This document shows positions 20,121 to 57,626 of a stretch of DNA of 64,000 nucleotides, piece by piece. Within the stretch, counting starts at the first letter, position 1. The number at the start of each line of letters is the position of its first letter. The position numbers and the translations under genes were made by a program. This DNA is from Branchiostoma floridae (Eukaryota > Chordata > Leptocardii > Amphioxiformes > Branchiostomatidae): contig NC_049997.1 in assembly GCF_000003815.2 (NCBI RefSeq), positions 12,080,459 through 12,144,458 of the forward strand, read 5' to 3'. The notes below the pieces were generated by a model. The model was not told where the DNA came from. It saw only the letters and a list, made by a program, of their open reading frames with translations, and did not search any database.

Positions 20121-20217
20121 GACTGACATATGCAAATGAGGCACAACCAGGCGCGTCAGTCTGTGACAACTGTCATTCTGCGAGTGGAGACTTGACTTTG
20201 TTGGTAGCTGCCTTTAG
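20121..20217 (+). promoter_or_regulatory. Promoter and non-coding exon 1, dynein light chain copy 1
   Basis: An octamer ATGCAAAT (20130-20137) in the context ctgacatatgcaaatgagg lies 87 bases upstream of a strong donor, CCTTTAG|gtgagtg, at 20217. Copies 2 and 3 repeat this block with nearly the same spacing. The octamer is the classic POU/Oct site. I take the donor as the end of an untranslated first exon that splices to 21495. The exact start of transcription is not visible. Confidence 0.6.
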
Positions 20218-21276: not shown

Positions 21277-21367
21277 TAGCCTGGGTGCCATCCTACTTCT
21301 ACAGGGGCTCCTTGCACTTGCTGCGAGTGCAAGGAGCCTCAGTGGAAATAGGAAGGCACCCAGGCTA
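21277..21367. repeat. Foldback repeat with about 41-bp arms
   Basis: The sequence tagcctgggtgcc at 21277 is matched by its reverse complement ggcacccaggcta ending at 21367; ggctccttgcac and gtgcaaggagcc flank the short loop. It lies in intron 1 of dynein light chain copy 1, about 130 bases before exon 2. It is probably a degenerate palindromic MITE. Confidence 0.8.
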
Positions 21368-21537
21368 TAGACAATTGGACCTTTGCTCTATGAAACTGAA
21401 AGGACAGAGGAAAACAGAGAGCTGTAGAGAGTCTAATGTCTGCAGCTGCAAAGATCCTCCCTACTAACGCGGGCACCATGGCTTCTCTTTGCAGTCCCCG
21501 GTGTCGACCTCGGCCTGACCGCAATCCTCCAAACAAC

Positions 21538-23040
21538 ATGGCGGCTGTTAAGCAAGCTGTTAAGGATTTGTTCCAATCTGACGACAGGTAAATATCATGG
21601 CTGATCAAGAAACCCCTCCCGTAGAAGCCCCCCCTGCCCCGGCAGAGGACCCTCCTGCGGACCCCCCTGCGGAAGAAAAGCCTGCTGAGGAGAAACCCCC
21701 CGAGAAGAAACCTCCTCCTGCTGACAAGGGGTCGAAGGGTCCTCTAGATTATATAGCAGGCCTGTTTAAGGACGAGTAAGTGGTTTATGATTTTTAGTGC
21801 ACTTGTCACTCTGTGTGGTTGGAGCTGCATTTACCAAAGGTATGTCTTCCAAAAATAATTTCATCAGGTTAGTAGAACATAGGATATTGGAGGATTCTTT
21901 TACACAACCAATAAGATCTCACCTGCTTCTTGTTGAAGAGGTTCATCAGTCACCTGCTATGTTTCGACGACTATCTGACAGCTTCGAGAAACAGCAAGAA
22001 GCAGCACTTCAGTCAGAAGTTCTGAGGAAGATGTCTGATAGGCAACAAAATGTACATTGTCGTAAGATTTAACTGGTTGTAAAAGAAAACACCAATGTCC
22101 TAAAGGTATATTGCCAACTGACTTTGTAGCATGGTACAAGTAGATTATTATACACTAGGATGGTATATGTTGGGCTAGTTGCATGATACTAGAAAGCTGC
22201 CTTCAATGCTTTTATATGTACAGCCGTTTATGTGCATGTGAGTGGATATGTTAAACTTTGTGTCACGTATCAGCTCTTGTTTCTTTTTCTTACAGCGAGG
22301 CAAATGCAGGAGATGTCAAAGTCAACATCAAACAATGTGAGATGCCGGATGACATGAAGGACCATGCCGTCGAGACAGCGAAACCTCTCGTAGCTGTAAG
22401 AATGAAAACTTTTGTGCATACATTTGTTAAGCACTACTTTCCTCTTTCTAATACCCTGGTGTAAAAAAACGGTACAGAAGAAGCCATTTAATTGCACACC
22501 CCATTTGCCAGCATATTTCGTGCAATTATCCAGATGGTGCAACAAAGCGAAGTTGTCCAGCTAGACGGCACCACCAAGGAATTTTGGGATTCTGTGCAAT
22601 TAACAGAAGTGTTAGGTTATCCGTCGTGCAATTAACAGGCTTCTACTGTACCTAATTTTGGTTGGGGAGGTATAAGGCTGAGTGAAACTAGAGGGATATT
22701 GGGCTCCACCTTCCAATACTGTGCCATAGAAGCAGTGAATAACAGGTCACAGCCCCTACAGCCTCAAAAAGGCTATGGGACTGTTTCAAGCACTATGGCA
22801 AATTTTTTCTAACCTTTGAACCATAGCCTAGGTCACTGACCTTGAGTAACTTTTCCAAAACAGGAGAAGAAGCCTCACAAGGACATCGCGTCTGCTCTGA
22901 AGAAAGAGTTTGACTCCAAGTATGAGCCGACGTTCATCTGTATCGTGGGCACGGACTTCGGATCCTCCATCACCCACACCAAGGACTGCTTCATCTACAT
23001 GTACATGAACAAAACTGCCATCATGCTTTTCAAAGTGTAG
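21538..23040 (+). CDS. LC8-type dynein light chain, copy 1, short isoform
   Basis: Coding exons are 21538..21587, 22296..22395 and 22864..23040 (327 nt, 108 residues). Exon 2 of the transcript starts at 21495 after ctctttgcag. The N-terminus MAAVKQAVKDLFQSDD joins in phase 2 to a body with [32 protein letters not shown] and [15 protein letters not shown], which matches the dynein light chain type 1/LC8 fold (about 89 residues in vertebrates). LC8 is a homodimeric hub that binds short linear motifs in dynein intermediate chain and many partners. From recalled family sequence, the usual WH pair before CIVG is FI here, so the pH-sensing His55 is missing, and the C-terminal Ser-Gly is replaced by a single Val. 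Family membership is firm. Specific partners and cell type cannot be read from sequence. Confidence 0.85.
21597..23040 (+). CDS. LC8-type dynein light chain, copy 1, proline-rich long isoform
   Basis: A second ATG lies 9 bases past the first donor, inside what is intron for the short form. Coding exons are 21597..21775, 22296..22395 and 22864..23040 (456 nt, 151 residues). The first 59 residues are Pro/Glu/Ala/Lys-rich and low complexity, ending [15 protein letters not shown] before the same phase-2 junction (GA|gtaagt). The LC8 body is identical to the short form. If the 21587 donor is skipped, the short-form frame ends at TAA 21589-21591, five bases before this ATG, so translation would need reinitiation or a transcript starting downstream. 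The arrangement is conserved in copy 2, which argues strongly that both forms are used. Confidence 0.75.
22475..22648. mobile_element. TA-target MITE, family 2, intact copy
   Basis: TA (22473-22474), then CAGAAGAAGCC and ttaattgcac, ending gtgcaattaacaggcttctactg with TA at 22649-22650. It is 174 bp, non-coding, and sits in the intron between exons 2 and 3 of dynein light chain copy 1. Confidence 0.85.
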
Positions 23041-25560: not shown

Positions 25561-25779
25561 CAATGCTAAACTTTCTTCTAACACAAAGTACACACGGATC
25601 AAATTTTCAACTACCACTGTCGCTCTCTTCAGGATCAATACTGATGACCAATCACTTCTGTCAGAACGTAAACTTGCAAAGCGATTGATCATCAGTATTG
25701 ATCCTGAAGAAGACGACAGTGTCGCTGAAAATTTGATCCATGTGTACTTTTGTGTTGAAAGAAAACTTCCATTGTACTA
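25561..25779. mobile_element. Palindromic MITE, family 3, copy a
   Basis: The outer arms tacaatgctaaactttcttc and gaaagaaaacttccattgta are inverted, and so are the inner arms cacacggatcaaattttc and gaaaatttgatccatgtg, giving a long hairpin. A related copy is at 46962-47125. It is non-coding and lies in intron 1 of dynein light chain copy 2. Confidence 0.8.
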
Positions 25780-25911: not shown

Positions 25912-28900
25912 ATGGATGCAATAAAGGAATTTTTACAATCTGACGACAGGTAAATATCATGGCTGATGCAGCGACCCCTGCCCCCCCTGCGGAAGAGAAC
26001 CCCCCTCAGCCTACGACCTGCGAACCCCCTAAGGAGCCCCCTCAGCCTACAACCTGTGAACCCCCTAAACCCCCTCCGGCTGAGAAGGGGTCCAAGGGGC
26101 CACTAGATTATATCGCAGGGCTGTTAAAGGATGATGAAGCGTAAGTAGTTAATGATTGTTGCAGAATTTCTCACTCTGTGTACCTGGAGCTACATAACAG
26201 AAGGTATGTGTCCTGCTAACTAACTTTGTTGCATGATAGATATACCAGTAAGATGAAAACTCTCGTGCAAAAGACAGAGGTAGCATCTGATATGGTTACT
26301 GAAGATAGTTGTCTTCCCATTACTTTATGTATTTGCAAGCATCTACAATCTATATAACAGTATAGCCAGTATATCTATCCTTTAGCTTAACTTTGACTTT
26401 GACTTTATTGACGATGAGACAAGTCATTACAAGGGTCTGCCTAGGCAGCTTTGGGCTGGTAGGGCAGAACCTACAAAAATGCGGACGAACGTACAAAGAA
26501 TTCGTCATAAGAAACACACCAGCTTCGCAGGCATGCGGCACGGCAAAAGTTGGTTAATTACACTGAATGACCTGTCACACCTACAAGAAACCTTAAAGTT
26601 TGTACATAGTCGTCTTGATGCAAGCATTGTTTAAGCACTGTTTAAGCTATCTGGTGAGAATGCCCATACAGAACTTGCTGGCAACAGGTTCTACTCTATG
26701 ATGGTTCTAGCATTGCAACATTTACAATTTACCTAGCCATGTATACGTAGGGCAACTTGTTTTTGGAACATCTTGTTCTGTGTCTTGTCCATGCACATTG
26801 CAAAAAGAAACCAATAAGACAAGAAAAGATAATGTTGTTTAGCTAAACTACAATTTTCAATTATTGGTCAACACTATACATGTAGTTATCTATTCGGAGT
26901 TGAGTAAGGGAGCTTAGAACATCAATGAATTACACAAGGTGCATTCTGCATGTTGTTTTATTCGCTTACTGGGAAGGCCCTGAGAACTGTTTTATTCTGC
27001 AAAAGAGGTAAGTAATGTCAATTGTCTTAAAAGTCAAACAGCTGTCTGCAACAAGTCCACATGTTGAGGTAAGATTACTAAGAATGAATGCTTACTACTA
27101 TAATGTTTTTTAAAGAAAAGCTATGTATGCATGAACAATACCACTTGTCCAAGTAGTAATTACTATTAAATTAGTAAGCTATAATTGCAAAGCGCTATCA
27201 AAACTGGATTTAACCATCATTCACCTGATTGTTGTAAAAAAAACTTACTGGAAACATTTCAATCCCATGTTTCATTATTGACATATCACAAAAACTTAAA
27301 AACATTTTTCATCAACATGCCTGACCTGAACAACATCCCACAACGTCCTACCCTCGCAAGACAGGGAACAACAATGCTAATTCGGATGGAGAGAGAGAGT
27401 GTGCACAAATTTCTGTCATTGTCCAATATCCAGACTGATGTTTGAAAGTGGTTTACTCCAATTTCCATTACGCCCATCAAAGTTGATGAGGTGATCTTAA
27501 AAGTTTTTCTATCAAAACTAAATAATCAACTAGAAAGGCCGACATTTGCTTGAGAGCAAATACAGCATATTTCAGCCATCTCCCTCCTCATGCAACAATA
27601 GACTGTTCCAAAATCACCCATGTGCAAAAATGGAACACTTCTGCTTAAAATGACTTCTAACTACTAATCACACTTATGAGCAAAAATGAATCTTACAAAC
27701 CCCCTTCAAGAATGGACTCTTCTAGTGCACCCCATGTAGAAAGGTAAAATAGACGACTCCAAAAACACTTCCGCTAAGAAATGGAATTTTGAATCATCAG
27801 CCGTCCAAAACCATATTTGAAAAAAAAGCCCTCTGTGCAAGAATCGACTCTTCCTGTCATACCCCTGTGTAAAGTGGAGCGATCCAAAAATACAGCAGCT
27901 AAAATAGGACATTGACATAATCACCAAAGTCCACAAAATGAATTTAAAAAAATACCCCCTTCGTCGAAGAATGGAATCTCCCAGAACACCCTGTTTAAAA
28001 TTGCACAATAGACAAGTCCAGAAATACTCACAGTACATGGCCATTTGTATAATAAGCAACCCAGTCCAAAACTGAATTTTAAAAAAGTCCCCCGTGCATG
28101 AATGGACTCTTCTAGATGACACCAGGCTTGCTGATTGGCTGCCGAATCCTCCTCATGTGCAGTCTTCAGGTGGGGGTCAACTTCCATTCAACAAATGGAA
28201 TTCGGAATCATCACCCATGTCCAAAACTGAATTTTTAAAAAATCCCCCCTATGTGCAAAAATGGACTGTCCCAGTAGTAGTCTTATGTCAAGTGGTTCAG
28301 TGCAAAAAAACTTCCGCTAAAAAAAACATTGGCATTATCACCAAAGTCTAAAAGTAAATTTTAAAAAACACCCCCTGCCCAACAATGGACTCTTCCAGCA
28401 AAATGAGCTCGCTCATTGGCTGGTCATTAATTGGATTTACCTTGTCCCCCCAACCACCTGGATGTCTATGGACTAGGTAGGTAGGTACACTCTAGATAAT
28501 TGGATCTACCTGGCACACCTGTGGCCCTGACACACCAGAATGACCTAGAGGTCGTTGACCTCGGCACTCCAGACCTTACATATCCAAAACTCTCCCACAA
28601 AAACCTCCTTAAGGAGCCATTTTGAAGTGATTTATACCAAATATTATACATGGGTCCTTTGAATAAGTATCTAGGGAACCTCTGTCCCAAATTTCAGGTC
28701 ATTTGGATGTAATACCATGGTACAGGGGGCCAAATTATACAGTGTTGGTCCAAAAGTTGCAATAAAACCTCAATAAAATCATTTAAGGAGCAGATATGAA
28801 AAAAATGAAAAAAACACATTTGGGTATTGGCCCACTCTACCCTTGGGCCAAATTTCAAGTCATTTGGTCCAGGAACGGCGGAGATGAATCGCATTGAAAG

Positions 28901-30197
28901 TTTGACAGGAGAAAGAAAGAAAGAAAGAAACATTACGAATACAATATATTTCACCATACCTATGGTATGGCTGAAATATAAATAACGGCTGGCTAGAGAC
29001 CTGGCCTGGATACAATATTGTTGCTATTTATGACAAGAACCAACACCTGTTTCTTTCTCTGCAGCGAGGACAAAGGAGACGTTAAGATCAACGTCAAACA
29101 GTGTGAGATGCCGGACGACATGAAGGAACACGCCACCAACACAGCAACTCCTCTTGTAAAGGTAAGAAGATATCGTAGTGTACAGTCATATAAATGTTTA
29201 TACCCCTATTTATACATCGCTATGTTCTGACAAGTGACAACACAATGTTCTAAAGCAGGTCCACCTATAGACCTACTAGGACTTTAAATAGTGTAACTGT
29301 ATGTCTGTTATACATTTTATCTGACCTTGAACTCTTCTTCCCTAATGACCTCAATGAAAAGTGGCCTGTGGCCCAATTTGAGCTTCTCATGGACAAACAA
29401 AGCTTCAAACCCTAATCTCAACCCCTGACCAGAACTTAGGGTTGTCCTAGATGTAGACATTCAAAATTGTTTTTTCCATGTACAGTAAACCTGCTCAAGC
29501 GACCACCTCTTCTTAGCGACCACTTTCATTACGACCACTTTTTCTCAGTCCCGAAAATTTTCCTCATTGACGTAAACATTCACAACGACCACCTGGCCAA
29601 CACGACTGCGACCGCCAAAAATTGAGACCAAATCCCTGCCCATAACAACCACGTCATTTTCAAATCTTGAGGTGTCATCGATTTTCAATGATAACTAGCG
29701 CGATTTTGTGCCGAATTCGGCCAGTTTGCGTCAGATTTTGACTACCATTACGATGTTATGTTCAAAATAAAGATGGGGGCGGATGCACGTGTCTGTGCTT
29801 AAACACAACGGAAACCATTTAAACTATGCATCGGGCATGTTGTGAGTCAATACTCTTCTAACCGACCACCTGACCAAATTGACCGCTTTTGACAAGTCCC
29901 CCAGGTAGTTGTATTGGACAGGTTTTACTGTTAGTAGTTAACTTAAAGTTTTAAACATGAGGATGTCTAATTTGTAGCAACCTACCATAGGTCACTGACC
30001 TTGAGTAACTTTCCCAACAGGAGAAGAAGCCTCACAAGGACATCGCGTCTGCTCTGAAGAAAGAGTTTGACTCCAAGTACGAGCCGACATTCATCTGTAT
30101 CGTGGGCACGGACTTCGGATCCTCCATCACCCACACCAAGGACTGCTTCATCTACATGTACCTCAACAAAACCGCCATTATGCTCTTCAAGGTGTAG
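25912..30197 (+). CDS. LC8-type dynein light chain, copy 2, short isoform
   Basis: Coding exons are 25912..25949, 29065..29161 and 30021..30197 (312 nt, 103 residues). The transcript exon starts at 25877 after ctctttgtag. The N-terminus [12 protein letters not shown] joins in phase 2 to [19 protein letters not shown]. The last exon is nearly identical to that of copy 1 over [20 protein letters not shown] and [17 protein letters not shown], ending LFKV. The role is that of the LC8 hub family. Near-identity of the final exon to copy 1 suggests recent duplication or gene conversion, while the N-termini and introns have diverged. The first coding intron is about 3.1 kb and holds a satellite array and other repeats. 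Confidence 0.85.
25959..30197 (+). CDS. LC8-type dynein light chain, copy 2, proline-rich long isoform
   Basis: Coding exons are 25959..26140, 29065..29161 and 30021..30197 (456 nt, 151 residues, the same length as the copy 1 long form). The start lies 9 bases past the short-form donor, and five bases after the TAA (25951-25953) that closes the short frame when that donor is skipped, exactly as in copy 1. The N-terminal exon contains a doubled [11 protein letters not shown] unit and ends [19 protein letters not shown] before a phase-2 donor GC|gtaagt. The proline-rich part has diverged from copy 1, but the [13 protein letters not shown] tail is conserved, so the tail is probably the functional segment and the proline-rich part a spacer or docking region. 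This is inference. Confidence 0.75.
26393..26535 (-). repeat. Non-LTR retrotransposon 3' end fragment (copy a)
   Basis: On the minus strand this reads to cctaggcagacccttgtaat and ends in a repeated aaagtc-type tail. The same sequence occurs in the opposite orientation at 39285-39390. The short simple-repeat tail is typical of 3' ends of CR1/RTE-like elements. Confidence 0.65.
27600..28410. repeat. Tandem satellite, about 128-bp unit, six units
   Basis: The word gaatggactcttc or close variants recur near 27710, 27838, 27966, 28098, 28257 and 28382, each followed by an aaaacttccgctaa-like stretch and then tgaattttaaaaaa and ccccc. The array is in the first coding intron of dynein light chain copy 2. 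The 138-residue minus-strand frame here repeats itself and is an artefact. Confidence 0.85.
28690..28990. repeat. Dispersed repeat fragment with (GAAA)n
   Basis: The stretch aaatttcaagtcatttggtc followed by a gaaa microsatellite (about 28911-28930) and caccatacctatggtatgg looks like a retroelement end or a degraded mobile element. There is no second copy in the window, so the assignment is by appearance only. Confidence 0.4.
29483..29932. mobile_element. Pogo/Tigger-like non-autonomous transposon
   Basis: It begins tacagtaaacctgctcaagc and ends with the inverted ggacaggttttactgtta. The gaccacct and accgaccacctg words near both ends are also inverted-type ends. The interior is CpG-richer than the surroundings and has no frame. 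Shorter relatives with gaccacct ends are seen near 6770-6970, 12000-12150 and 32210-32330. Confidence 0.6.
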
Positions 30198-31020
30198 AGG
30201 TCAAAGTTTAGAGGTCATACCAAGACCTGCAATAAAAGCTTACAATGTCATCTTGTAGCTTAATAAAAGAGGAAAAGAAATAAAAGCGATGTTCTTTCAA
30301 TGACTTTTCATAACGTAATCAGAAGCAAGGAGGTTTTTTTTCTAAATAATCTTTACTTTTAGTTCTGAAAATCATTTTGAATGTCACAGTTTATTTAATC
30401 TCTTAGCAGTTGTGATGAGGTGATCTTCGGTGAAAGTCTGGTAAAAGAATTTCATTCTTACACTTTAAGGTGCTTTTTTCTTCCTAATGCTGCGTTTTGT
30501 AGGTGCTCAGTAAGGTTTTAAAAGGTGAAAAAAGACAGACCTATGCAATTCCCTTTTTTTTCACACTTAGCATTGTCTTTTGCTAATGGATGGTTATGGT
30601 TAAGGTAGTGTCATAGAATTGAAGAAAGTCCAACAACTTAAACCATGCTTTTATGGTACTTCTGCAAAGTAACCTATAACCACCCTCTAGCCAATCATTA
30701 TAGGAAGTGTGACAAAATATGGTGAATGCAATGCTGAAAAGATAGAACATAGCACCAAATTTGTAACTTACGTGAAGTACTTAAACAGCCTTACTACACA
30801 ATCCTGTGAATGTTTTTGTTCTTTAAAAACCAACATAGATACATGTATACACAACAGACGTAACTACAAGCAAGTAATTGGCTAATACAGTATACATTTT
30901 ATTCAAGCACTCGATCTATAACTACACAAGGATACTACAATGTAATATTATTACATGCTATTTGGTGGGTTATTGAAGTGTGATGATTACAATAAACATT
31001 TGAAACATTAAAAACCAGAG
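30198..31020 (+). terminator. 3' UTR and poly(A) signals, copy 2
   Basis: AATAAA occurs at 30262-30267 and again at 30991-30996. The distal site is followed by cttatttctgtgg, similar to the sequence after the copy 1 signal. Two 3' ends may be used. Confidence 0.5.
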
Positions 31021-31398
31021 ACTCCTTAATCTTATTTCTGTGGTATTTCATACATTACAGACATTTCACAAAATTTAACATAATTGTGTAGTGCAATTAC
31101 ATAGCCTTGCTTTCTAGCACATGGGGACTCCACATGTATGGAATAGGTTCAAGCCTTAAATCTGCCAGGGTTGTGGGAAGGAACCAAGACTTGTATACGG
31201 GAATCTGAGCTACATCTATATTATTTATTATTAGGTTATGATAGTATTAGAACCAAAAACATGATTTAATATTTTGGCCAAGTCAACATGAAATCATAAA
31301 ATGTGTCATGTACATCTTCAATCAGCTTCATGTTAAACATATTTTTTATTGCATTGTCAGTGCTTTCTCCAGGTCTGGATTTTTTCTGTCCTCTTATA

Positions 31399-31689
31399 CA
31401 GGGTTGAACAAGTTTTCTAAAATCCACTTGCCCGAACCAATTTTTCACTTGCCCAAAATCCAAATGTCACTGTTACTAGTATATGCATTTTCACTTCCAG
31501 CAATGGAATTCTCTGTAGACAATTGCTTGATGTCATGACTGTAAAAAGTAACAAGTACATCAAAATTGCACTAAAATCAATGGAAAAATCTTACTTGCCC
31601 GATCGGACAAGTGGGGTAGGTCATGCACTTGCCCGAACAGCACTTTCACTTGCCCTGGACAATAGGGCTAGTGGACTTGTTTATCCCTG
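31399..31689. mobile_element. Non-autonomous DNA transposon, 5-bp target duplication, copy a
   Basis: The ends are CAGGGTTGAACAAGT and ACTTGTTTATCCCTG, flanked by ttata (31394-31398 and 31690-31694). It is 291 bp and repeats cacttgccc/cttgcccga words inside. A closely related copy lies at 39728-40053 with a different 5-bp duplication. The 76- and 81-residue frames through it are not genes. Confidence 0.9.
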
Positions 31690-32347
31690 TTATATTAGTT
31701 TGGTCGAGTGTCGAAGTGCATCTTTTGGAAAGTGGCTTCGGGTGGTCCAAGCATGCTCCCCAGTGTAACATTAATTTTTAGAAATTCCAACCCTCGATTC
31801 CACACATTTAAGGGGCAAATTGCTTGATTTCAATCAAATATCCCTGTAGCTGTTTTGGTTGCACTGTTAACCCGCATTCCCAAGGCTCTATGAGACGAAG
31901 ACATTTTGTTCAGTTCTTGAAAAACATGAAGTTTAGAAAATCAAGAGGCTTCAGCACAAATTTTCTAACTCAAATGCAATGTCAGCCCTTTTTTGTAAAG
32001 ATAATCAACGAGTATAAACCAGATGTTTTCATATCTAATGTGTTATACAAAGAGTGACACAAAATATATATGACCCCTATCAAAAGTACATTATACTTGT
32101 TGGACAGGCTCACAGTATGTCTGTGTCACTTCCCCTGACCTCCTGTATGCAGGACTGTAACAGTAAAACCATGCAAGGGACATGAAGAAAATTTCTACAG
32201 CAACAAGAAACAGTTGACCAGTACCCCCAGGATTCTCAATGCTTAGGTCAACGGTGAAAATTATTCTTATGGACCATCAAAAATATGGTCCCAATGACCA
32301 GGTGCATGTGCAGAGGTCATCAGTCAATCAGTGCGTTGATCATGGAT

Positions 32348-32452
32348 GTAGTTCGCTTGGGTTGACATATGCAAATTAACACATCACTACGCCGAGGTTC
32401 CGTCACTTGTGCACTGAGTCTGTTGGATATAGCAGGTAGCTGTCTGTAAAAG
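32348..32452 (+). promoter_or_regulatory. Promoter octamer and exon 1, copy 3
   Basis: The octamer ATGCAAAT is at 32369-32376, 83 bases before the donor GTAAAAG|gtgagtt at 32452. The block tagctgtctgtaaaag matches tagctgcctgtag of copy 2. The exon is non-coding and splices to 33641. Confidence 0.55.
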
Positions 32453-32761
32453 GTGAGTTTTAACCAACAGTTTTTTTCGACACTCGATGTAAACAGTTAT
32501 AAACCTTCTCTACTGACAGGTGAGACTGGTAAAAATAAGAGTTGTGTCAAAATTTAAAGGATGCTGCATGTGTTAAAAGCCAGATCATCTTTTAGATTTT
32601 CAAAATCAGATGCTCAATCACATACTGATCTATAGAGAGATCATATACTGACCTACATAAAGATACGATATTCTTTCATTTACAGTTTTGAGGCCGAAAC
32701 GAAGAAGAGATTTTTGTTTGTAAATGCAGACATGCATAGGGGCACGTACCCTGCCCAGCTG

Positions 32762-32815
32762 AAAAGGGGGCGTTACCCATTGTTTTTATGTCTACATAAC
32801 TGCTAGCAACAATTT
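32762..32815 (+). promoter_or_regulatory. Conserved intron-1 element, copy 3
   Basis: aaaagggggcgttacccatt followed by tctacataactgctagc matches the copy 1 element (gctacatagctagac). It lies 311 bases after the exon-1 donor. Confidence 0.5.
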
Positions 32816-33673
32816 AAAATTGTCTTTGATGAAAATTACCATGTACATACACATGCGGTCTACACCATCACATAAAATAGAATTGACAAATATCAGGTAA
32901 AATTTATTGTGTATATATGGATTGCAAAGTATAATGTCACATTTTTTCAGCTGACCGGGCAATTTTATGCTCACTCAATCATACAAACGATGTCTGTACA
33001 CCTGCAAGGTTCTTTTAGACTACTTAATTTTAAAATCTCAAGTATCGCATAATTTAAGAATTTCCCAGCATTGCTCTAATCTATATCAATTTTAGCTTCC
33101 ATAGTTGTTTGTCCTACAATATGAAAACACTGCACTAAGTCTGGAAATAAGCAAGTAACATTCAAAGCATTGTTACCTTTTTAAAAGTGAAAAATGATTG
33201 TGTTGATATTGTACTGCTAGTATGCACAATGCATTCAACATGTATGGGACAAATTTAAACCTACTAGGGTAACATCAAGCTCAAATAGTGGAGTTTGCAA
33301 AGACTGAAATTGTTGTCAAATGCAAAATCACTGTAAGTTGTGTTTGTGGCAGTAACTAAAATATTACATTCTTTTGACGAAATACAGTTATAATAAACAG
33401 TTTCACACAACAGAGTGTGCTATATATACTTGGGAAGCTTTTAAGATGCATTCTCTTTTTCATAACTTTCATCTACAAAAGTGGCAGAATGTTTCATTTT
33501 GTATTAGCTAGTGAAGCAAGGGGGAATAATTAATAAGCTACGTCAGCCATGTATGATCAACTAAATGCTTCTCTATATCTGGTGTATTTAACTGTAACTA
33601 TTTGACATCCATATTGAAGCTGAGTGTTTTGTCTTTACAGTGTGGACTGTAGACGTACCGTCTTTCCAACAAA

Positions 33674-36600
33674 ATGGGGAAAATCAGTGATTTCTTCTTT
33701 GATTCAGACGACAAGTAAGTGCTTCTTGGATAAATACAGAGAGTACAGAGAGGTCTATGGCAAGAAAAATCACATACAGCACACTGTATATGTTCAGTAT
33801 CACCCAGCCCAACTGTGACACCCGATAGAACACACGTTTCAATGTGAAAAGGCCAGAAGTTACATATGTATGAAAGATGACTCCTTGAGCAAAAACATCG
33901 TAACAACATTAGCATCTAAACTCTTGAGATGGATTCAACCCTTAAACTGCCAAACCCGGATATATCCAGCACACATACACATGTCCTGTGTGCCGCACCT
34001 GGATATATCCGGGATAGCGTATTCCTCCGAAGTAGCAACTTTGCATGGGCGTAGCGCCCGAAACCCGGAAGTTAGGGACTTCGGCCTTGTTCGGGGGTTC
34101 TTTTTGGAGGTCAGCAGCCAACCCTGGCACCGATAGCATTTTATAGTGCTGAAACTCTGGCAGTTTAAGGGTTTAACATCCTCTTCCTATTGAAGTGACC
34201 GCTATCGTTGTGTTGATCATTGGATCAAGTGGAGGCCACCAGTGCAAGCCTTGGTGGACCCTATGGAAGCCCTGTGACATAACTAATATTCATGCACCAT
34301 AGTCATAAGTTAATAAAAGCCCCAATCTTAATAATACCACACTTCTCCCTCCATCACACTGTAGCCGTGGAGTGTCAAACTCAAATTTCACAAACCGTTC
34401 AACAAATTTCACAGACAGAAAACAAGGTAAATTTAGGTAAATTATGTGACTATCTTTACAAACTCTGGACACTAGTTTATAGAAAGAAGTGGATCTTAGA
34501 GGCAAAATTACTCAGATATTATGACTTCTAAATCGCACTCTAATGTGTAACATATTTCAATAATTATTATAAAAATACAGGGGTCACAGATGTCAAATTT
34601 TTGTCACTCATGGATTTTTGTAAAGTTCAAGGCCTTGTTTAAGATAGGGCGTTCCATCCCCCACCTAATATCACCTTAGATGAACCTTCTAGAGCTCCAA
34701 ACTGTTTAACGATACACAAACCTATAAACCCCTCCTGTGCCAGAAGTCAATGATAAAATTCAATGATGTCTATTATGTGGTTCTAATCGACTTTGAAACA
34801 GGACAATTAAAGTTACATAAATCAACTGACATGTTGACCAGACAAGGACAGAAACTTGGCTAAAACCCAAAGTCATTGTTAATCTCCTGCAGATGTTGTA
34901 GCTGCCGAATTTGTCAACGCCTTCAAGTCAAGGCTGGACAGTCACTGGAGGGGGTGGAGTACACGCCTAACCAATGTTCTAGCCTGCCTGAAATTTTTTC
35001 CCATCCCCTGGATTTTGAACAGAAATGCTATCGAGCACTTGAGACTTCCACACAACGATCATGTATAGAGGGGTCCGGGAAAATTTTGAAATCTAAGACC
35101 CTTTGAAACGCTATTTCCTGCATTTTGAGGGGCAAATTCTGCTGGTAGAGTAGACTCAGCTGAGTTTAATGGCATCTGTGCTAAATTTCTGGAGATCTTT
35201 ACAAAATTCATTTGTCAAATATCTTAACATGTCAATCTTTGTCCGTCCCCAGCTGCAAAATTCCATCAAAGGACCCTGCACCTAACCCAACATTAACTCT
35301 CATTGTAGACTCTCTTTACAACTCTGGACACTAGTTTTCAGAAGCGGATCTTATAGGCAAAATTACTGCCTCTTATGTGATGACATTGATATCAGAGATA
35401 TGTATCATATAAGATGATTTGAAAAGCTAAAAACAAGACCTTGCATTCTTTTTTAATTTTTGTCAACAAAATAAGGATGAATAAAAAAAAATGTTTTGAG
35501 CCACTCATTTTGAGTGACCACCAACTGATGGGAAAATGATAAATGCAGCCATCTCTGTTGTCTTGACTAGGAATCTTGTGGTCTATAACTATATTATGTA
35601 TGAGGTGAGGAAAATTGCAATACATGTAGAGACATCATGTTAGACATAACATTTTGCTATGGAGTGGAAAATGGCTGACCCCTCCCCCTTTTGCCCTACA
35701 TTGTCTAAAAATGCCTTGGGTGACCGCAGCATGACAATAACGCGACCAAAGACCAGCCCAGCAGCTTTGGTGAGCATGTTTTAAGGTGGCCGGGGCAGCT
35801 CTAGCTTCTCTCTCAGGAAAATAATGCCGACAGTGCCCGCTCACGAAACCCCTGTGACGCCCCATGGAAAATCCAGTTTCTTCCCATCCCCCATAGAATG
35901 GCCTACCGCTTTATTCAACCCCTTCAAAAGGTAAATGGCATTAAAGTTTCTTCTAGATTTGTTGGCACAACTTAAGACTAACACTACCAATGAATTGATA
36001 ACTCTAACTTACTTTGGGGAGCCCTGAAACAGCACAATATGAACATGAGAATTGATATTAACTTATGCAAGAAATAGTTTAAAATAACTCATTTCTGATC
36101 ATAATTTTGTCAGGTTTTTTATCACACAGTTCTGGAAAAGGCAAAAAATTCCTTACAGTGGACAGATGGCCAACAAGAATATGTTAATTACCCCAATACA
36201 AATTACCTTTTTTTACACATCTTTCACAAATGTCCTCTTCATATCTAACAGCTACTGATGTATGGTTGAACATAGCAAGGAGGAAAAGATATTCTATGAA
36301 AGGAAAAATAGCCAGAAAGACTCATCTTGATTCTTTGCAGCACATAAAGAAACTTAAGGTGATTTGATAAAGCAATGGCCTGGAGGTTGTTTACCTACTA
36401 CCTTGTTGTTGTCTAAAAGAAATATGCAAATATCTCTTAGAATGTGCTTCATTTCCAATGATAAGTCGTTTCTGCTAAGTGCTACTAGAACAAATTTTCA
36501 AGTTTTTGCTCTTTTCCACAGTGTGCGCAATCAGAAGTTTGGCCTCCACTCAAAATGGGTTTAAACCACCCTGTCACCTGTGAAATATCAGGTTAAGTCA

Positions 36601-39600
36601 AGGAAAGGGAATGGGCTGTAAAGAATGTTCTGGACTTAAATGTCAAAACAATTTAACAATGAACAAAAACATAGAAGATTGTCAGAATGTCAGTATAAAA
36701 CCATATTAATGATATACGCCCAACGCCTGAAGACCCAAGGAAGCTCAGCCCTTGGAACAAGGGTTATGTGGAATGCATCAAAATTGAAGTTATTTTCTTT
36801 GTACATCATACGCAACCGAGTTAAAATAATTCAATGCAAAATGTACCAGAAGTTGAGAAAATCTGGCGTCCCAAAACAAAAAATTGTGTAAGAACATCAG
36901 TGCCAACGTCCGGATTCGATATTCAAACTTTTGATGGCAGTGCAATGATTGTCTTAAAGTTTAAAACTTTAAGATTACCCTAAAAATCAATATTTTTTTT
37001 TGCTGCATATCTTATTATTTTAACTGCAGTATGACCCTACATGTACGTCATTGTCTATATAACGTAGAACAAGCTCCAAAGAAAATGCTGACAACAATGT
37101 CTATGTTTCATGCTAATCAATTGAAAAATGATTAAGCCATAACTTTACGTCACAACGTTCTTTTGTCTGCAAAGACTCAAAAGTCACTCTCGATTACTTT
37201 CTCCTTATATCATACTTACTTTGTGATTTCTATCGACAACTCAAAGAGGAAGAAAGAATGATGATAACCACATTGCATGACTGCCTAAATCTTTTATTGA
37301 CATCTAATGTCTGCCATTGTTTATGAGATGCAATGCTCCCTAGTTTCCAAGGGGCAAGCGCAAACATACGACCCTCTGCATTTTGTTGTAAAATTCTCAC
37401 TGGAATTGCTCAACGGGGGACTTGGAGAATGACTGAAAGGAATTATGGTTACGATAACTGGCATTCTCTCAATTCTTCCTGGGGGAATTACATGTACGTT
37501 TCGCCTTGGTAAGTTGACGGTTGATTCTGTAGTTTTTGTGAGGTTAGACTTATGAATTCCTACAGACTAAGATTTCCAATATTCTGTTCCACTTGACAGA
37601 TAGGTCAAAACTGCATGACATGTTTATAATGGCAATGGGAAACAGCATTTTGCTGGGATCCAAGAGTTCAAAATAACAGGAAACAACAATCTTAAGCTTA
37701 GTGAATGGCTCTTGATGATGACTACTTCATCCATAGTAGAATGACACATTTTAAAAAGTCTGATTACCAAATCTTCTACATTACAATGTATATTCAAGGA
37801 CGTCCTTGGTACATCTAATTTTTGTGTGTGGATAGAATTGAAGAAGAGTATCTGGAACCAAGGAGGTTTAAAAAGGACTCCTTGCTGGAACATAAATTCA
37901 GCTTCTATAGCATATCTATTAGCCCTTCATTGAATGAAAAAAATAGGCAAACATTAAGACAGTGTTCATGGGAATTTAATCTAACTTCTGTTCGCAAATC
38001 TCAGTTTAGGAGCCGCCTTCAACAACATAGCAATTTTCTGGCTTTTGTTGTTCAAAAAGCTGTGAAATCTGCATTGTTCGAGACAATGAAGCCTCCAACC
38101 CCAGGCCAATTTTCAACTTATACTAATTGAATAACCATCTGAGGCAGGACTGGTGTTTGTTATTCCTTAAAAATGAAGACACCAACGTCAGTGAACGTAT
38201 CATGATGATTGTGCAATCAGTAGAACAACAAGTACTCGGTTACTCTGTTTGTATATCTTTTTCATATTTATATCTAATTTCTTAGACTGCATCCCTTCTT
38301 GTTTACCAATGTGAAAGTGTGAAACAGTGAAATAATTTTAGCCTGCCCACCCCTGGGGTAAGTGAAAGTGGTACAACCTGTTTTTGAGGTGTCCTTTTAT
38401 TAGGGGTCAGTGCTGTTGTTTAGCATTCAATCAGTCAGGTGTTTTAACATTGGTTAGTATAGGCTGCCAGGCATTTTCAAATATTTTCTTAGATTGCCAA
38501 GGTCATTGTTGTTGGAAATACATATATCAGGAGCCTATTTTTTGTGCAACATTCTGCACAGTCTGAAACATACGCCTAAGAATCATAACTTTTATTTCAA
38601 GCTATCCAGTGATTAACAGTCAGGAGATACACAGGGAAAAATCTATCCTGTTCTCCTGTTGTACAACAAGCTTAAGCCATCATGTTGTTTTGAAGTGGGC
38701 TTTAACTTAGCATGATTTATATGTAAAAGTAAAATGGTAACACTTCCTTTGCAGTCATTTGATACATGTATGTTCAATCGATATTATTTCAAACACAATA
38801 TGTTGGCAGCTATGAATTATGAATGAAACAGGCTTCTGTGTAACCACAATAACATGCGATATGCATATTACATTTATTTTGGACGATGAATTCAATATCT
38901 TCATGACATCTTCTGACACCAGCTAGCACAAGTGCTGCTCTCTATGTAAGAAGTGGCAGTGATTTTGTTTTGATTGATATTGCATAATTTCATCATGTTT
39001 CTAAAACCAGAAGTTAATCAGTGTAGTACTAACAAATTTGCTAATCCTACACTTCACTCAATCACACTCACTCTGTTGAGCTCGCTCAGAATGCTACGAC
39101 TACTCTTCTAAAAGCTTTAGAAAGAAAAGTACATGACTTGTACACTGACCTTCCACCTACTCCGATCTTTTAAGTATGCTTTTGCTATATGGTATAGATC
39201 AATTTCTTCCGTAGTTGCATGACATTTTATAGTTATTGATTATTTTATTGCATTATATTGTATTGTTTCCTGTTATGAATTCCTTGTATGTTCGTCCGCA
39301 TTTTTGTAGGTTCTGCCGCTACCAGCCCAAAGCTGCCTAGGCAGACCCTTGTAATGACTTGTCTCATCGTCAATAAAGTCAAAGTCAAAGAAACCGTATC
39401 AACACTCACTCACCTAAGTTTGTTGTCAGCTGTCCCTTGTCTTGTGAGGGTTAGACGTGCTTTCACTTCAAACCTCAAAGTTTGATGGAAGATCTCCAGC
39501 TACTTCTGTCCTGTGGATGGGATAGTAAAAGGTCTTTTAACACCAACGAAATAATTGTACAAGTTTCTGATTACATTTGAAAACCTTACAATAAGCAATG

Positions 39601-41094
39601 AACAATGAGTATTTGTGCAAAATATACTTCCACATCCGATGTTGAACATCCAATGTTACAGAACTTTTCCCTAATCAAACTCAAGGTTCTTGATTTTTGC
39701 CATCAGGTTATTAAATTTGATTACCTCCAGGGTTGAACAAGTTTTCTACTGTCTTGTCCTATCGGGCAAGCACATAAAAAATGTACTTGCCCGAACCAAT
39801 TTTTCACTTGCCCCAAATTCAAATGTCACTGTTACTTACTAAGTATATGCATTTTCACTTCCAGCAATGGAATTCTCTGTAGACAATTGCTTGATGTCAT
39901 GACTGTAAAAAGTAACAAGTATATCAAAATTGCACTAAAATCAATGGAAAAATCTTACTTGCCCGATCGGACAAGTGGGGTAGGACATGCACTTGCCCGA
40001 ACAGCACTTGCACTTGCCCTGGACAATAGGGCTAGTGGACTTGTTTATCCCTGACCTCTTTGACATTCCAGTTAACACAGCAGGAGGTTCGAAACCTGTC
40101 ACAACTGTAGAAAAAAAGTTATTTTGGGAAGCAAACAATGTATAATCATACAAATGTTAATGATATGTGATGTTCATTGAACAATACTTATTATGGTTTG
40201 ATGTAATTAGGAACTGTACAGTTATCTTAGTGTCATTGGTGTCACAGGATCTTTAAAAGATACATTAGAACATTTTTTCCTTTTGTTTTCCATGTAGTGA
40301 CCCAAAGGATGTGAAGGAGGATGTGAAGCAATGCGAGATGCCAGATGACATGAAACAACATGCCATCGACACAGCAAAACCTCTGGTCGCAGTAAGTAAA
40401 TAAATTCGTCTCAAGAACAATTTACCCACAACTCTTAAATCATCACATCTTAAGTTGTCCTGTTTCAAAGTTTCAGACAACAAGCTTGCATTTTCAAAGA
40501 AAGAAGGGACCAAACCTGTTGTGTCTAAATATAATTGACAGAATACGTCTACTCTTAAAATGTACAGATGAGCATTTCATGGTAAAACTTATCAATGACT
40601 TTCAAACAATAGAATTCAACTGGCAAATTAATGACATTGGGATTTCAAAATTACGATAAAAGTAACAACTTTGGCAAATGCTAACTGGGAAATATTGTTG
40701 GTTCATGTACATTTTGTACATGACTCACTGATACAATGAATATTTAGAGGTCATAGTTCATTAACCTTAAATGACCCATACCATCAGGTAAAGATTTCAC
40801 ACATGTTCATATGAAAATTGAATATTTTTTCTGTTTGAAAAACTATCATGCCAAATTCTCAAATCGAACTTTACCTGTTACCATGGTCCATTGACCTTGA
40901 GTCACCTTTCTTTACAGAAGAAGAAGCCTCACAAGGAGGTCGCCTCGACCTTGAAGAAGGAGTTTGACGAGAAGTACGAGGCGACATGGATCTGTATCGC
41001 TGGTACGGACTACGGTTCGTCCATCACTCACGCCAAGGAGTGCTTCATCTACTTCTACCTGAACAAAACCGCCATCATGCTCTTCAAGGCTTAG
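33674..41094 (+). CDS. LC8-type dynein light chain, copy 3 (short form only)
   Basis: Coding exons are 33674..33714, 40298..40391 and 40918..41094 (312 nt, 103 residues). The transcript exon starts at 33641 after gtctttacag. The N-terminus MGKISDFFFDSDDN runs into [20 protein letters not shown], then KKKPHKEVASTLKKEFDEKY, TWICIAGTDYGSSITH and [16 protein letters not shown]. It keeps the Trp of the canonical TWHCIVG motif but has Ile for His, and an Ala terminus. It is the most diverged of the three copies. No second ATG follows the first donor, so no proline-rich isoform is possible here. The first coding intron is 6.6 kb and carries two small transposons. The function is that of the LC8 hub family; specialisation is unknown. 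Confidence 0.85.
33937..34173. mobile_element. MITE with 16-bp inverted ends
   Basis: Starts aacccttaaactgcca and ends tggcagtttaagggtt. An internal inverted pair, ccggatatatcc and ggatatatccgg, is also present. About 237 bp, in intron 1 of dynein light chain copy 3. Confidence 0.8.
34180..39280. other. Large intron of dynein light chain copy 3, unassigned sequence
   Basis: I see no coding exon on either strand. Frames such as 36640-36891 and 37822-38130 have no recognisable domain or splice borders. The sequence is AT-rich with degraded repeats. Confidence 0.4.
39285..39390 (+). repeat. Non-LTR retrotransposon 3' end fragment (copy b)
   Basis: Reads ttttgtaggttctgccgcta to gtcaataaagtcaaagtcaa, the reverse complement of 26393-26535. 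The (aaagtc)n tail marks the 3' end. Confidence 0.65.
39728..40053. mobile_element. Non-autonomous DNA transposon, 5-bp target duplication, copy b
   Basis: Same family and orientation as 31399-31689 and nearly identical over about 250 bp, with an extra gtcctatcgggcaagc block at the left. The flanking duplication is acctc (39723-39727 and 40054-40058). Confidence 0.9.
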
Positions 41095-44853: not shown

Positions 44854-47800
44854 CTACACCTTGATTTCCAAATGTTGGTGTTGTCTTATCTCTTCCATAA
44901 TTTCTTCCTCTTTGGGTTCAGTGAGACCACTTCTAAACAAGTGGTGCACCGACTCTACCCTGACTTCTGTAAACGATAACGTACGACTGCGCCCTTCGTC
45001 TTCCGGTTCTTCCTTAATGGCATTCGACTTGTCCCATTTGGTGATGAAGTTCTCAAGAACGAGAGCGATGAAGCAGTTCACGTAGACCACCACGGAGACG
45101 AGCCACCACACGATGAAGAAAAGCTGTGCCCAGCCCGTGCTTAACGCATCCTTGTACGCGAACAGAAACACCATCCAGTTATTGACAACCATCACGTCCC
45201 ACAACACGACTAACGCTGAGGCAAAATCGTTAAAGTTGTTGGCCCAATAGTTCAACTGCTGGTAGCTCCCGCACGTGAGATTCGGGGTGCGGAAGGTCTC
45301 GTAGTCTGTCACACCGCTGAATATCTCGATCCCGAGGATCGCGAAGATGTAGTAGATCACGACGAGGATTCCCGCGAAGGCGCGCATGTTCTTGATGAGG
45401 TCGAGCAGCGTGCTCAGCACGAGGGACATGGTTTTGAAGAGCGAGATAACGCGTAGGAGACGGAACATGATGAGGATGTTGGTGATGCGGATGAGGTCCC
45501 ACAGTTCGATCACGGTCTCCACTTTGTCCTTTCGGTCAAGTTCAGAGAAAGGAGACCCGTACTCTACCAGCGTCATAATCTCCACTATCACGAGACCGAA
45601 GGTCACCAACGCATCAAAGATGTATGTTTTCCTGAATTGTGGTGAAAGTTATCTATTAGGACACTATGTTTTTAATTCAAATTTTTAAAAACCATGTAAT
45701 AACTTATGACAGTAAACTAGGGCATGCAGTTTCCAAAAGGCAAATTCTGCCCCTACTTGTGACCTTGAAAACTTACAACAGCTTCAAGAGCTGCTAGTAG
45801 AAAACCAAAATCTTCACACACCTGTTAAAGCAAAGTTCAAACAGCACTAGTACACCAGCGCCCCCTACCTGATCCTGTAGTACCTCCAGCCCAGCAGGAC
45901 AAACTTGAGGCACTGTTCCACCAGGTAGTACACCACAAAGACAAAGTTCAGGAGTTCCAGGTCTGAGTTGGTCGCATTCAGCTGGATTTGGGTGAAGTTA
46001 AGAAGAGGAAATGACGTCATATCACCAAAATTCCTTGTGACATACAACATAAAATACGATACTGACATCAGTTCCACTAGGAATGATGTATACATACCGT
46101 AAGACTTACAAATACAATAGAAATTTTTTTTTTTCAATATCACTTTTTATTCTTTGCTGATGGTAAATAAGACCAGTGTAACTGAATGGACCAGTTGTTC
46201 TAAAGAAGGCTAAAGACACAGCAAAATCTTTGGAAACTGGAAAACTGCAGTATAAGAATTCAGATCTTGTCAAGATGTATGAACCTAACTGGTGTAAAAT
46301 TGCCTTTCAGATGGTTAGCGTTCAACAGTTTTAATGATCAGCTTGTTTCACCAAATAAAACTGATAGGACAGAGAAAAGTTTAGGATTGGAAAATGGTTT
46401 TATAACATTAATTTCATACACCTAAGTTCTGTAGAAAAATTCATATTCCTAATGCAACTAGACAAACCATCGAACATAAAACATATCTGCTCTTTTATCT
46501 CCACTATAACAGAGAAGCGAGAAGTTGAATTTATCCAGCAATAGTCTCATTTTGTATCTGTGAACTGTATCTTTTCAACATGTCTTGTTGTGACCTGTAC
46601 TTAGCCCAGGGTGGCAAAAATGTGCAATAAAGTTCTTCAATCTAATTCTTCAATTAATGCCAGGATTCCTCACTGACCTGATCATACTCTATGGTGAGCA
46701 GGATAGAGACTGTGAGGATGTTGGACAGGGCAACCACACAACACAAGTACTCAAAGTACCGGTGTGCAATCATCTTCTGTAGAAACTGTAGCCAGGAGTG
46801 TCTGCAAAACAGATCTAGTCTTTAAACATAACAGTCTAAGAAGATATGCCATTTTCACTTACATGTAAACAATACACTTGTAAGAACATTTTCCATCTAA
46901 TTAATCTACAGCAATTATCATTTGAAGCTCATCTGTGTTTGTAGTCGCCATCTCTAGTACAATCATTATGCTAAACTTTCTTCCAACACAATAAAGGGAT
47001 ACACGGATCAAATTTTCAATGCCCAGTCAACCACTGTCGCCTTCTTTAGGATCAATGGCGACAGTGGCCGTTGAAATTTGATCCGTGTAGGCCTTTGTGT
47101 TGGAAAAAAATTAAGCATTGTAGTAATTTGTACTACAATCTACAGCAATATCTATCTTTAATATGAATCATACAGTAGTGTGTATATGATACTTCGTGAA
47201 TGTCTGTCTACCATACCTGAATGCTGGTAGAGGCGGCCTGTGATGAACCTCGTAGTCTAAGTCTAACAGATCAAAAACCGCCTGGAACTGTGCCGCGTTG
47301 TACGTCCCGAACATGTCCCTCCCCAACTTGTCCGTGATCCTCCGTTCTGCGCCCTTCGGCAGGGAGACCTTCTCGATCACGTGGTAGATCGTGCTGACGC
47401 GTACGCTGTCGTTGTCGGAGTTCGTGCTGAGCTCCTTGTTCTGCTGACTCAGCACCTCAAAGGCAGTACGTACCGCGACCCTCCTACGGAAGAAACTGCC
47501 CTGCAGCGAAGACTGGAGGTAGCCACGGAACTGGTTATAGATGACAGCTGTCATCATGTTGAAGAGGAGGTACAAGCCAATCGCAAGGAAAAGGATAAAG
47601 TAGACGGCGTACAGACGGTTGTGAGAGTACGCCGTCATCGTGACGTCCGGGTTGTTTGCCGTGGTCAGGAGGACGAGTAGCGTGATGAAAGCGTTCCACA
47701 GCGAATGGAAGTTCGGGTCGCTGATGCCAGTTGTAGCTCTGTCTACTGGTACCCATGTGCTGTTTTTACCAGGGCCAGTTGAACCCACAGGTTCCGAGAA

Positions 47801-49941
47801 CAACAACATCCCGACAATTGTAAAGAAGTACACATGGAGAAACTGTAGCACCAGCACTGCGAAAATCTCTGGTAGGGTCCGCTTTATGCAGTTTACAGTC
47901 TTTTTCATCAAAGAGGAATTCTGTAGGAGGAAGAAAGGACGTAGAAAGCGCCGAATACGCAAGACCGGACGATAACGCAGCGTTCCGGGGACTTGTACGA
48001 CACACAGGACGCCAAGTGTCACCATCCAATCCAGAAGCGACACGATGAGGATTAGAACATACGCGATCAACCACGGACTTTTGAGAAACTTCTCCTTTCC
48101 AACTAAGTAGGTTTTGACTACAAAATCAGCGAGGAAGATGAGAAGACAGACCAGTTCTATCGACTCCGTAACGCCGCACGGGGGCTCCCATTGGCTGGTT
48201 TGATTCGTCCCGTTTCTGTCCCTGAAGAGCATCTGCGTGTCGGAGGTGTAAGAGAGAGACGATGGGCGCTCGAAGAACGCGAGAATGAGCAGGACGGATA
48301 TGGCTGCGTACATGCCCCACTGGACCCAGTTGGAGTAGTACAGGCGGTACAGGCGTAATGACCACGGGTCCACGCGATGGTGGATGGAACGGTACTGGAA
48401 AGGAGACAATACATTCTTATGATATTCTCAAATGATTCCAAATGAATAAAAAACTTTGCTTTGACACAAGATGAAATCAAGAATATACACATTCTTGACA
48501 TGAGAAAGAGGTAATTGTACATGTATGATTGTACATTTTACAAAAGTACTTTTACAGTTGTTGAATAAAGAAACTAGCCATAGCATCTTTAAATTTTCTA
48601 CATTTTAGAAGGACCAACTACCAATTGTAACATTGTCAACAACAATCATAGTGATATGCTGCTTTTACCAGAAAGTATGTTCTCTGTCCCTATTATGAAA
48701 TCAATTTTTGTCCTGTTACATAGGAAGTCTGACTTACATGAATGGCATCTTCCACAAAGACAACAGCCTGCAACAGGATGTCTTCATCTGAAATAAGACA
48801 AAGAGGAGTCAAGTATGCATATAGGGAAAGCCATGTTACAAATGTCCGGATTAGAGCTGTGTACCTAAACAAATTTTAGGTACAGGTACAGGTACACAAG
48901 TTTAGGTACAGGTCCGGACTTGAACCTGTACCTGAACTACTTGTTCAAGTAAAAGTCGATCTTCAATAAGGATAGAAGCATGTTTGAACCAATAAAAACG
49001 TGTTTGTTATGGTAGACACATGATGCAACAAAAATTTGACCCTTACAAAATTGTTGTTTTTCCCTCACTGGGGCTCAGAGACTGCCATGGTAATTTCACA
49101 GTAATTTTATCTGTCAAAGTGGCCACCCTCTGACCTGTTATCCTGTCTGGCTTAATTGCACTAATTAGATACAGGTCCAGTATGGTACACCAGTGTTCCG
49201 GTATTTTGTACCTGTACCTAATTGACTGTACCGGTACTGTACCTGTACCTAATTGACTGTACCGGTTCTGTATCGGCACACTGTACTGGTACACAGCCCT
49301 AGTCCGGATCCCTTAAGCTCTAGAGGACCAGTCAGTTCCAGGAGGTCTGCAAGGAGCATGATTCATCCATTATCAGGACATTTCGACTCCTAGATGTTTT
49401 ACTCTCACCTGCACAATCGGTTGAGACTTAAGATTTTTACAAATCATTGTTTGTAGCTAAATTTTGTTGGGATATTGTTTGGGTTAGTATTAAAAAAAAG
49501 TTAAGCCCTTCCCGTGCCTGATGGCACATAGGGTGGCGCCCATCTCTGTTTCCTTAGCCCTGGGCCACACAACGCAATCACTACAGCAGGGGGCTAGTCC
49601 ACTGGTAGTGGTGTGTGTTCAACTTTCATACTCTTTCCCGAATGTTGAGTGCTAAGCAGAGAAAGCAGCATGTACCATTTTTATAGTCTTTGGTATGACT
49701 CGGCCGGGGATCGAACTCACAACCTCACGAACACTCTACCCACTAGGCCATTGCACCATTGGGTTAGTATTAGGGATGTCATTTGTATGCACTAGTACAG
49801 GTCTTCTTTTGTAACAATATCAGTCAGAAAAACTCTATAAATAGTATAATAGTCAATAGATATTAGTCCTGACACGTCAATTATAGCATCTAAAACAACA
49901 TACTTCTGACATGCATTTGAACAAGCAGCCTGTGTCGTACC

Positions 49942-57400: not shown

Positions 57401-57600
57401 ATGCTCTTTAGTTGTGCCTCCCAGTGTTTGCTTTGTGCGTCTTCATCCATCTGTGCAAGGGTTTCTTTTTCCTTCAGGTACTTGTTGAGGTTGTGCGTAT
57501 CTCGTCTTCTGCGGAATTTTCTCAATGCAGTTTTTGTGACCTTCATTTGTTCCTCAAGTGCAGGTGTCCAATGTCCTTTACTGTGTGTGGTTATGGTCAA
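54414..57600 (-). mobile_element. Non-LTR retrotransposon, RT and RNase H, 5'-truncated
   Basis: Minus-oriented element with an intact frame of about 1,000 codons, a short 3' UTR, and a simple-repeat 3' end (acaactactactacaacaag). No AP-endonuclease domain precedes the RT, so the 5' end is missing. RT plus RNase H plus a C-terminal CCHC-like knuckle suggests the I/Ingi-type group of LINEs. The exact clade needs a tree. Confidence 0.88.
54571..57583 (-). CDS. Reverse transcriptase-RNase H polyprotein, 5' part missing
   Basis: The frame is open from 57732 to the stop at 54571. Numbering from 57732, retroelement sequence starts near residue 50. A basic linker with KGHWTPALEEQM and RKFRRRRD is typical of the region after the endonuclease. 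The RT spans about 270-520 with KSYRPITLSS, FADYEACFD, GIPQGAVLS and the catalytic YADD at 443-446. RNase H spans about 740-880 with TDGSALGNPGP, GELEGLHLA, CDCKAA and GNEIADKEA. C969-x2-C972-x7-H980-x4-C985 is a zinc knuckle. No stop or frameshift in 3 kb means a young insertion. The first part of the open frame (57627-57732) belongs, I think, to the host TPCN2 exon, not to the element. Its role is target-primed reverse transcription, but without endonuclease it is unlikely to be autonomous. Confidence 0.88.
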
Positions 57601-57626
57601 AAATAAACATGATTTGCCATACTTAC

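Follow-up and report, generated by a model that had tools for sequence, protein, structure and literature searches.

Introduction

LC8 is a small hub protein that is nearly invariant, and the His of its TWHC motif and its C-terminal SG are residues with known roles. The genes described here lie on the + strand of the window, a stretch of 64,000 nucleotides of Branchiostoma floridae DNA, and are referred to as genes 1, 2 and 3. They resemble canonical LC8/DYNLL in that the LC8 domain covers positions 1-85 of the 86 positions of the Pfam model (PF01221), with scores of 102.3 and 103.9 bits for the two forms of gene 1, against a cut-off of 29.1, 101.6 bits for the B form of gene 2 and 101.5 bits for the A form of gene 3, and in that their best matches among solved structures are dynein light chains (E 6.3e-23). 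They differ from it by a cap or an arm before the core, by an Ile in place of the His of TWHC and by the missing C-terminal SG. Canonical LC8 frames occur elsewhere in the assembly, on contig C11 (L013:1492-1782) and on the small contig C175 (L014:1387-1770); unlike the window genes, these are unsplit and carry no proline-rich arm. The frame on C175 may represent either another locus or a haplotype that was left unmerged.

Extra residues before the core are also found in LC8-family axonemal chains, although these are weaker matches to the window genes, with E values from 4e-7 to 9e-4; we take the matched proteins to be the Chlamydomonas 11 kDa chain and LC10 and Tetrahymena LC8_2b. The arrangement of one core with two N-termini, one of them armed, is that of the myosin essential light chains A1 and A2, where the arm is described, in a passage of PMC10777021, as about 40 residues long and rich in Pro, Ala and Lys. 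That family is unrelated, and for the LC8 pair a single upstream start with adjacent donors looks likelier. A further comparison is with dual-specific splice sites, such as that of UBC: the AGGT core of such sites is present at the boundary between the two LC8 start exons, but the acceptor signals there are weak. Among the papers listed by a literature search that mainly covered work outside subscription, none dealt with LC8 N-terminal isoforms in amphioxus.

Two start exons on one LC8 gene

The initial annotation had placed two overlapping start regions on one LC8 gene, with exons A and B spliced from neighboring donors to a joint acceptor at 22296. On rechecking, the coordinates of both exons, their phase 2 and the acceptor proved exact to the base (Table 1), whereas the description of the two as overlapping does not hold, as the coding stretches are separate and lie nine bases apart. 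Both junctions, 21587-22296 and 21775-22296, are in phase 2, so that two plausible donors are compatible with one acceptor. One LC8 gene with two possible N-termini, giving predicted proteins of 108 and 151 residues, is the part of the earlier claim that is supported, and the layout is retained in a tandem duplicate with protein-level constraint on exon B.

Table 1. Features of the three LC8 genes in the window (a slash marks the splice junction)
Feature	Gene	Position	Strand	Remarks
Upstream element GACATATGCAAAT	1	20125..20137	+	putative promoter element; common to genes 1-3
Putative noncoding exon 0	1	20138..20217	+	donor TAG/GTGAGT after 20217; start 20138 nominal
Exon 1, 5'UTR part	1	21495..21537	+	acceptor 21494/21495; 32/35 aligned positions identical to gene 2
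Exon A	1	21538..21587	+	coding, 50 nt, phase 2, donor CAG/GTAAAT
Nine-base spacer GTAAATATC	1	21588..21596	+	holds donor A and frame-A TAA; same in gene 2
Exon B	1	21597..21775	+	proline-rich arm, 179 nt, phase 2, donor CGA/GTAAGT
Exon 2	1	22296..22395	+	
Exon 3	1	22864..23040	+	end of LC8 domain
Exon A	2	25912..25949	+	phase 2, donor CAG/GTAAAT (25949/25950)
Exon B	2	25959..26140	+	phase 2, donor 26140/26141
Exon 2	2	29065..29161	+	phase-2 acceptor before 29065
Exon 3	2	30021..30197	+	
A-type exon	3	33674..33714	+	MGKISDFFFDSDD; phase 2, acceptor 33640/33641, donor CAA/GTAAGT
Candidate second first-coding exon	3	35824..35930	+	phase 2, own acceptor 35816/35817
Exon 2	3	40298..40391	+	
Exon 3	3	40918..41094	+	

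If donor A is skipped, frame A reads AGG TAA, with the TAA at 21589-21591, and the ATG of B follows after five bases in a different frame, exactly as had been reported. Because AGG TAA results whenever a phase-2 exon with a terminal AG meets a GTAA donor, the stop is no extra feature; the notable point is that a second start in good context, with a long open frame, lies immediately behind it. The four donors of exons A and B in genes 1 and 2 rank in the best 1.6 to 3.9% of the 3,965 GTs on the + strand for pairing with the 5' end of U1, the scoring of splice sites being based on generally known site frequencies and the U1 5' end.

The same layout in a tandem copy

Further LC8 exons in the window were located by tblastn with both forms of gene 1. 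The order of features in gene 2 matches that in gene 1: an acceptor, 5'UTR, ATG A, donor A, TAA, ATATC and ATG B, then another phase-2 donor and, ahead of exon 2, a phase-2 acceptor. The pyrimidine tract and AG at the exon 1 acceptor of gene 1, CCTACTAAC, are retained in gene 2, and a 32-base stretch across the A/B junction is identical in the two genes. Between the two, exon A differs in length by 12 nt and donor B is displaced 6 nt downstream in gene 2, with the phase intact in both cases. A 25-base junction probe, searched against the 513-Mb assembly with up to three mismatches, was found in two places, genes 1 and 2, while the reversed control was found in none. When the assembly was searched at the protein level with E values of 1 or below, 15 candidates were scored and 10 matches obtained; eight of them correspond to exons of genes 1 to 3, the other two are the unsplit canonical frames mentioned above, and no third B arm was found among them. 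Judged from the sequence, then, the two-N-terminus layout on this divergent LC8 gene pair is real and is duplicated.

Several other features were observed around the two copies. The arm of gene 2 contains an in-frame 36-base tandem duplication (25996-26067, 89% identical). Long inverted repeats lie in the putative first introns at 21277-21367 in gene 1 and 25615-25721 in gene 2; they are 87 and 88% complementary, respectively, and their sequences differ between the genes. In the intron after exon B, homology between the genes stops at 21845, where a repeat begins (about 21835-22107) that explains nearly all of at least 65 genome matches, 40 of 1,087 candidates having been scored. In the wider window, known structured RNAs and tRNAs were searched for and none was found. 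Fragments of an ion channel gene, with PF00520 matched in two frames and presumably encoding a two-pore channel, lie on the - strand at 44854-48409, and a 1,053-codon open frame on the same strand at 54571-57732 looks to us like the reverse transcriptase, with RNase H, of a non-LTR retrotransposon.

Constraint on the first coding exons

The evidence for constraint comes from one duplication in a single species, by comparison of genes 1 and 2. Across the 55 codons compared in exon B, 47 base changes have produced 18 amino-acid differences, whereas 28.5 would be expected under neutrality, and none of 20,000 simulations gave so few differences without introducing a stop. In these simulations the same number of substitutions was applied starting from gene 1, and indels were ignored. 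The last 22 codons of exon B show 2 differences against 7.2 expected (P 0.00035). Exon A, on the other hand, shows 5 differences against a neutral mean of 5.4 (P 0.40), a comparison of 12 codons that has little power. The dN/dS ratio between the genes is 0.50 for exon A (12 codons), 0.38 for exon B (55), 0.20 for exon 2 (32) and 0.05 for exon 3 (58). We therefore regard exon B with good confidence as a translated exon, whereas the case for exon A rests on the retained start, frame, phase and donor together with the A-type exon of gene 3.

Exon 3 is identical between genes 1 and 2 at 169 of 177 bases, with dS of 0.22, compared with 1.11 for exon 2; the last exon of these genes has likely undergone gene conversion. 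The introns beside exon B are still alike at 53 of 69 positions, which indicates that the duplication is not ancient.

A common upstream element and a third gene

Exact copies of GACATATGCAAAT are found at 20125 in front of gene 1, at 24576 and 24607 in front of gene 2 and at 32364 in front of gene 3, and every exact copy stands upstream of one of the three genes. At one mismatch, for which 0.17 sites would be expected in the search, a fifth site lies at 36419, within the long intron of gene 3. Between genes 1 and 2 the likeness extends over an ungapped block with 80 of 110 positions identical, which ends at the donor TAG/GTGAGT after 20217 and 24699, respectively. When searched against the assembly at E of 0.001 or below, this block matched at genes 1 and 2 only. 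Gene 3 has a similar arrangement, GTAGCTG..TGTA..AG/GTGAGT, behind its copy of the element, with a putative exon 0 that ends at 32452, and its likeness to the block gave scores of 28 and 35, whereas the highest scores among 20 shuffles were 23 and 24. We infer that the block represents a common promoter and a noncoding exon 0 for genes 1 to 3.

The A-type exon of gene 3 is supported by the junction motif GACGACARGTAART, by the alignment of exon 1 and by the putative exon 0. Within the window the motif occurs solely at the three A exons, even when one mismatch is allowed, compared with 0.08 occurrences expected, a figure that flatters the result because the pattern was derived from those three sites. 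The peptide encoded by the exon was also considered as proof and was rejected: with a score of 22 it ranked first among the 34 candidates in 30200-40298, but the best scores elsewhere in the window were 23 (in sets of 62 and 58 candidates) and, on the minus strand, 25 (171 candidates), and the peptide alone is therefore no evidence. No B exon adjoins the A exon of gene 3. A proline-containing frame in the long intron of this gene, at 35824-35930, second-best among the candidates, is possibly an alternative first coding exon, with an acceptor in the top 0.6% of AGs and a donor at 3.35% of GTs. In comparisons of this frame with the two B arms, the observed local score was matched by 1,898 and 2,705 of 5,000 shuffles and the global score by 575 and 599, and its likeness to them is not significant. 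If it were a true exon, the ancestral layout would have had A and B as separate exons, and a reading in which one splice site serves as both donor and acceptor would be strengthened. The idea that exon B arose by duplication of exon A was likewise rejected; the caps are alike (IxxLF..DD), yet shuffles lend this no support, the observed score for six A-B pairs having been attained by 126 to 1,629 of 2,000 shuffles.

How two proteins might be made

As all three genes carry the element and a putative exon 0, the simplest model is that of a single promoter combined with alternative donors. Transcription would begin near GACATATGCAAAT, and the noncoding exon 0 would be spliced to the acceptor that precedes ATG A by 43 bases in gene 1 and by 35 in gene 2. 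Use of donor A would give the short cap and a protein of 108 (gene 1) or 103 (gene 2) residues. Use of donor B, which lies 188 (gene 1) or 191 (gene 2) bases beyond donor A, would turn A into an upstream open reading frame (uORF) of 17 codons in gene 1 or 13 codons in gene 2, and the main frame of such a transcript would encode 151 residues, including an arm some 47 residues long in which Pro, Glu, Ala and Lys are abundant. B would probably be reached by leaky scanning past ATG A, and hence at low output. Taken as a whole, with tandem genes, two proteins from each by way of donors A and B, B made by leaky scanning and a function for the arm, we give this model about an even chance.

The step that sits least easily is the translation of B. 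ATG A has an A at -3 and a G at +4, and in a shared transcript it would be the first AUG after the ATGs that lie within the element itself; in gene 2 a further ATG follows four bases after it. In gene 1, 184 nt separate the end of the uORF stop from the B exon junction, and a stop that far upstream of a junction is expected to expose the transcript to nonsense-mediated decay (NMD); poor translation would be expected as well. A strong first AUG and NMD exposure of B transcripts fit poorly with B as a constrained exon. Termination and reinitiation, which the initial annotation had offered as a possible route to B, is unsupported, because the stop follows automatically from the phase and the donor and because the gap to ATG B is five bases. 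Passages in two reports are relevant here, one stating that reinitiation after short uORFs requires a minimum distance, a requirement that DENR-MCT-1 might remove (PMC5972666), and the other that distance is predictive of DENR-dependent reinitiation (PMC6547434). Five bases is very short in both genes and is not a permissive distance. Leaky scanning at low output is our first choice for the making of B.

Alternative explanations

The mismatch between a constrained exon B and a poor transcript to carry it keeps alive two explanations that would alter the 5' end of the RNA. A separate start site, located downstream of ATG A and inside exon A or immediately ahead of it, would make the choice one of promoter and would remove both the uORF and the NMD problem. 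The near identity of the exon 1 5'UTR between the copies (32 of 35 positions) could reflect promoter function, and the title of a 1984 reference listed in PMC10777021 speaks of two promoters in myosin light chains. However, no copy of GACATATGCAAAT is present near exon A, even with one mismatch, and a conserved element and putative exon 0 lie upstream of the starts in all three genes; as these precede both starts, choice by splicing is favored, and we consider a separate promoter unlikely. A little less probable is that the AG/GT at 21587/21588 is dual-specific, acting as the donor of A and the acceptor of B, which would make the two abutting and mutually exclusive first coding exons and give B a clean 5'UTR. 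The acceptor score of the site on a simple scale is a moderate 2.78 in both genes, equal to that of the exon 3 acceptor of gene 2; of the nine other acceptors, two score lower (gene 1 exon 3, -0.6, and a gene 3 acceptor, 1.72), and the identical 32-base stretch spans this very junction, while gene 3, which has no B beside A, has CAA/GT there and thus lacks the AG. A precedent for dual-specific sites is described in part of PMC10809524, where they make up 1.26% of annotated human donors, a low base rate that counts against this reading. So do the pyrimidine content, 5 of 10 at positions -5 to -14 compared with 7 to 10 in the nine others, the strict branch motif, which lies 6 nt from the AG in gene 1 and 14 nt from it in gene 2, and the better acceptor with CTAAC that lies 93 bases (gene 1) and 73 bases (gene 2) upstream; two of the nine other acceptors likewise have no strict branch motif at a usable distance. 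If true, however, there would be no intron between the exons, one site would decide between the short cap and the proline-rich arm, and the switch would have been retained through gene duplication.

The remaining explanations deny that one or other exon has a coding role. Exon A in genes 1 and 2 could be a relic of an ancestral first exon, with B as the sole protein and A as a uORF that holds B low. This would agree with the 12-nt length difference in A and with the amino-acid comparison, in which no constraint was shown for A, whereas B is constrained; yet the two copies agree exactly in donor A, its phase and the junction, and the motif is common to gene 3, none of which a relic would need, and we find this explanation more doubtful than either of the former. 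Finally, one or both exons might be unused and the layout merely inherited through a fairly recent duplication, as the remaining similarity of the introns beside B would allow. Changes in exon B are strongly biased toward keeping the protein, and the B frame has outlasted a different mix of indels, which makes this last explanation very improbable.

The proline-rich arm

Counted as far as KGSKG, the arm has 48 residues, 15 of them prolines, in gene 1 and 47 residues, 16 of them prolines, in gene 2. The two arms have diverged, yet one stretch of 13 residues is identical. The arm is expected to be flexible and would probably form a second binding surface on the LC8 dimer, as the A1 arm does for myosin. 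The Pro/Ala/Lys-rich arm of myosin A1 binds actin, according to a passage in PMC10777021, and we suggest A1 as the nearest functional parallel, in the sense of a likeness of design and not of kinship.

How a constrained B protein arises although A holds the first AUG is the question raised by this layout. The 5' structure predicted for the RNA differs between the three routes, namely leaky scanning, transcription from a separate start site and dual use of one splice site. If the arm is added by splice choice, the LC8 hub would gain a second binding surface in some cells.
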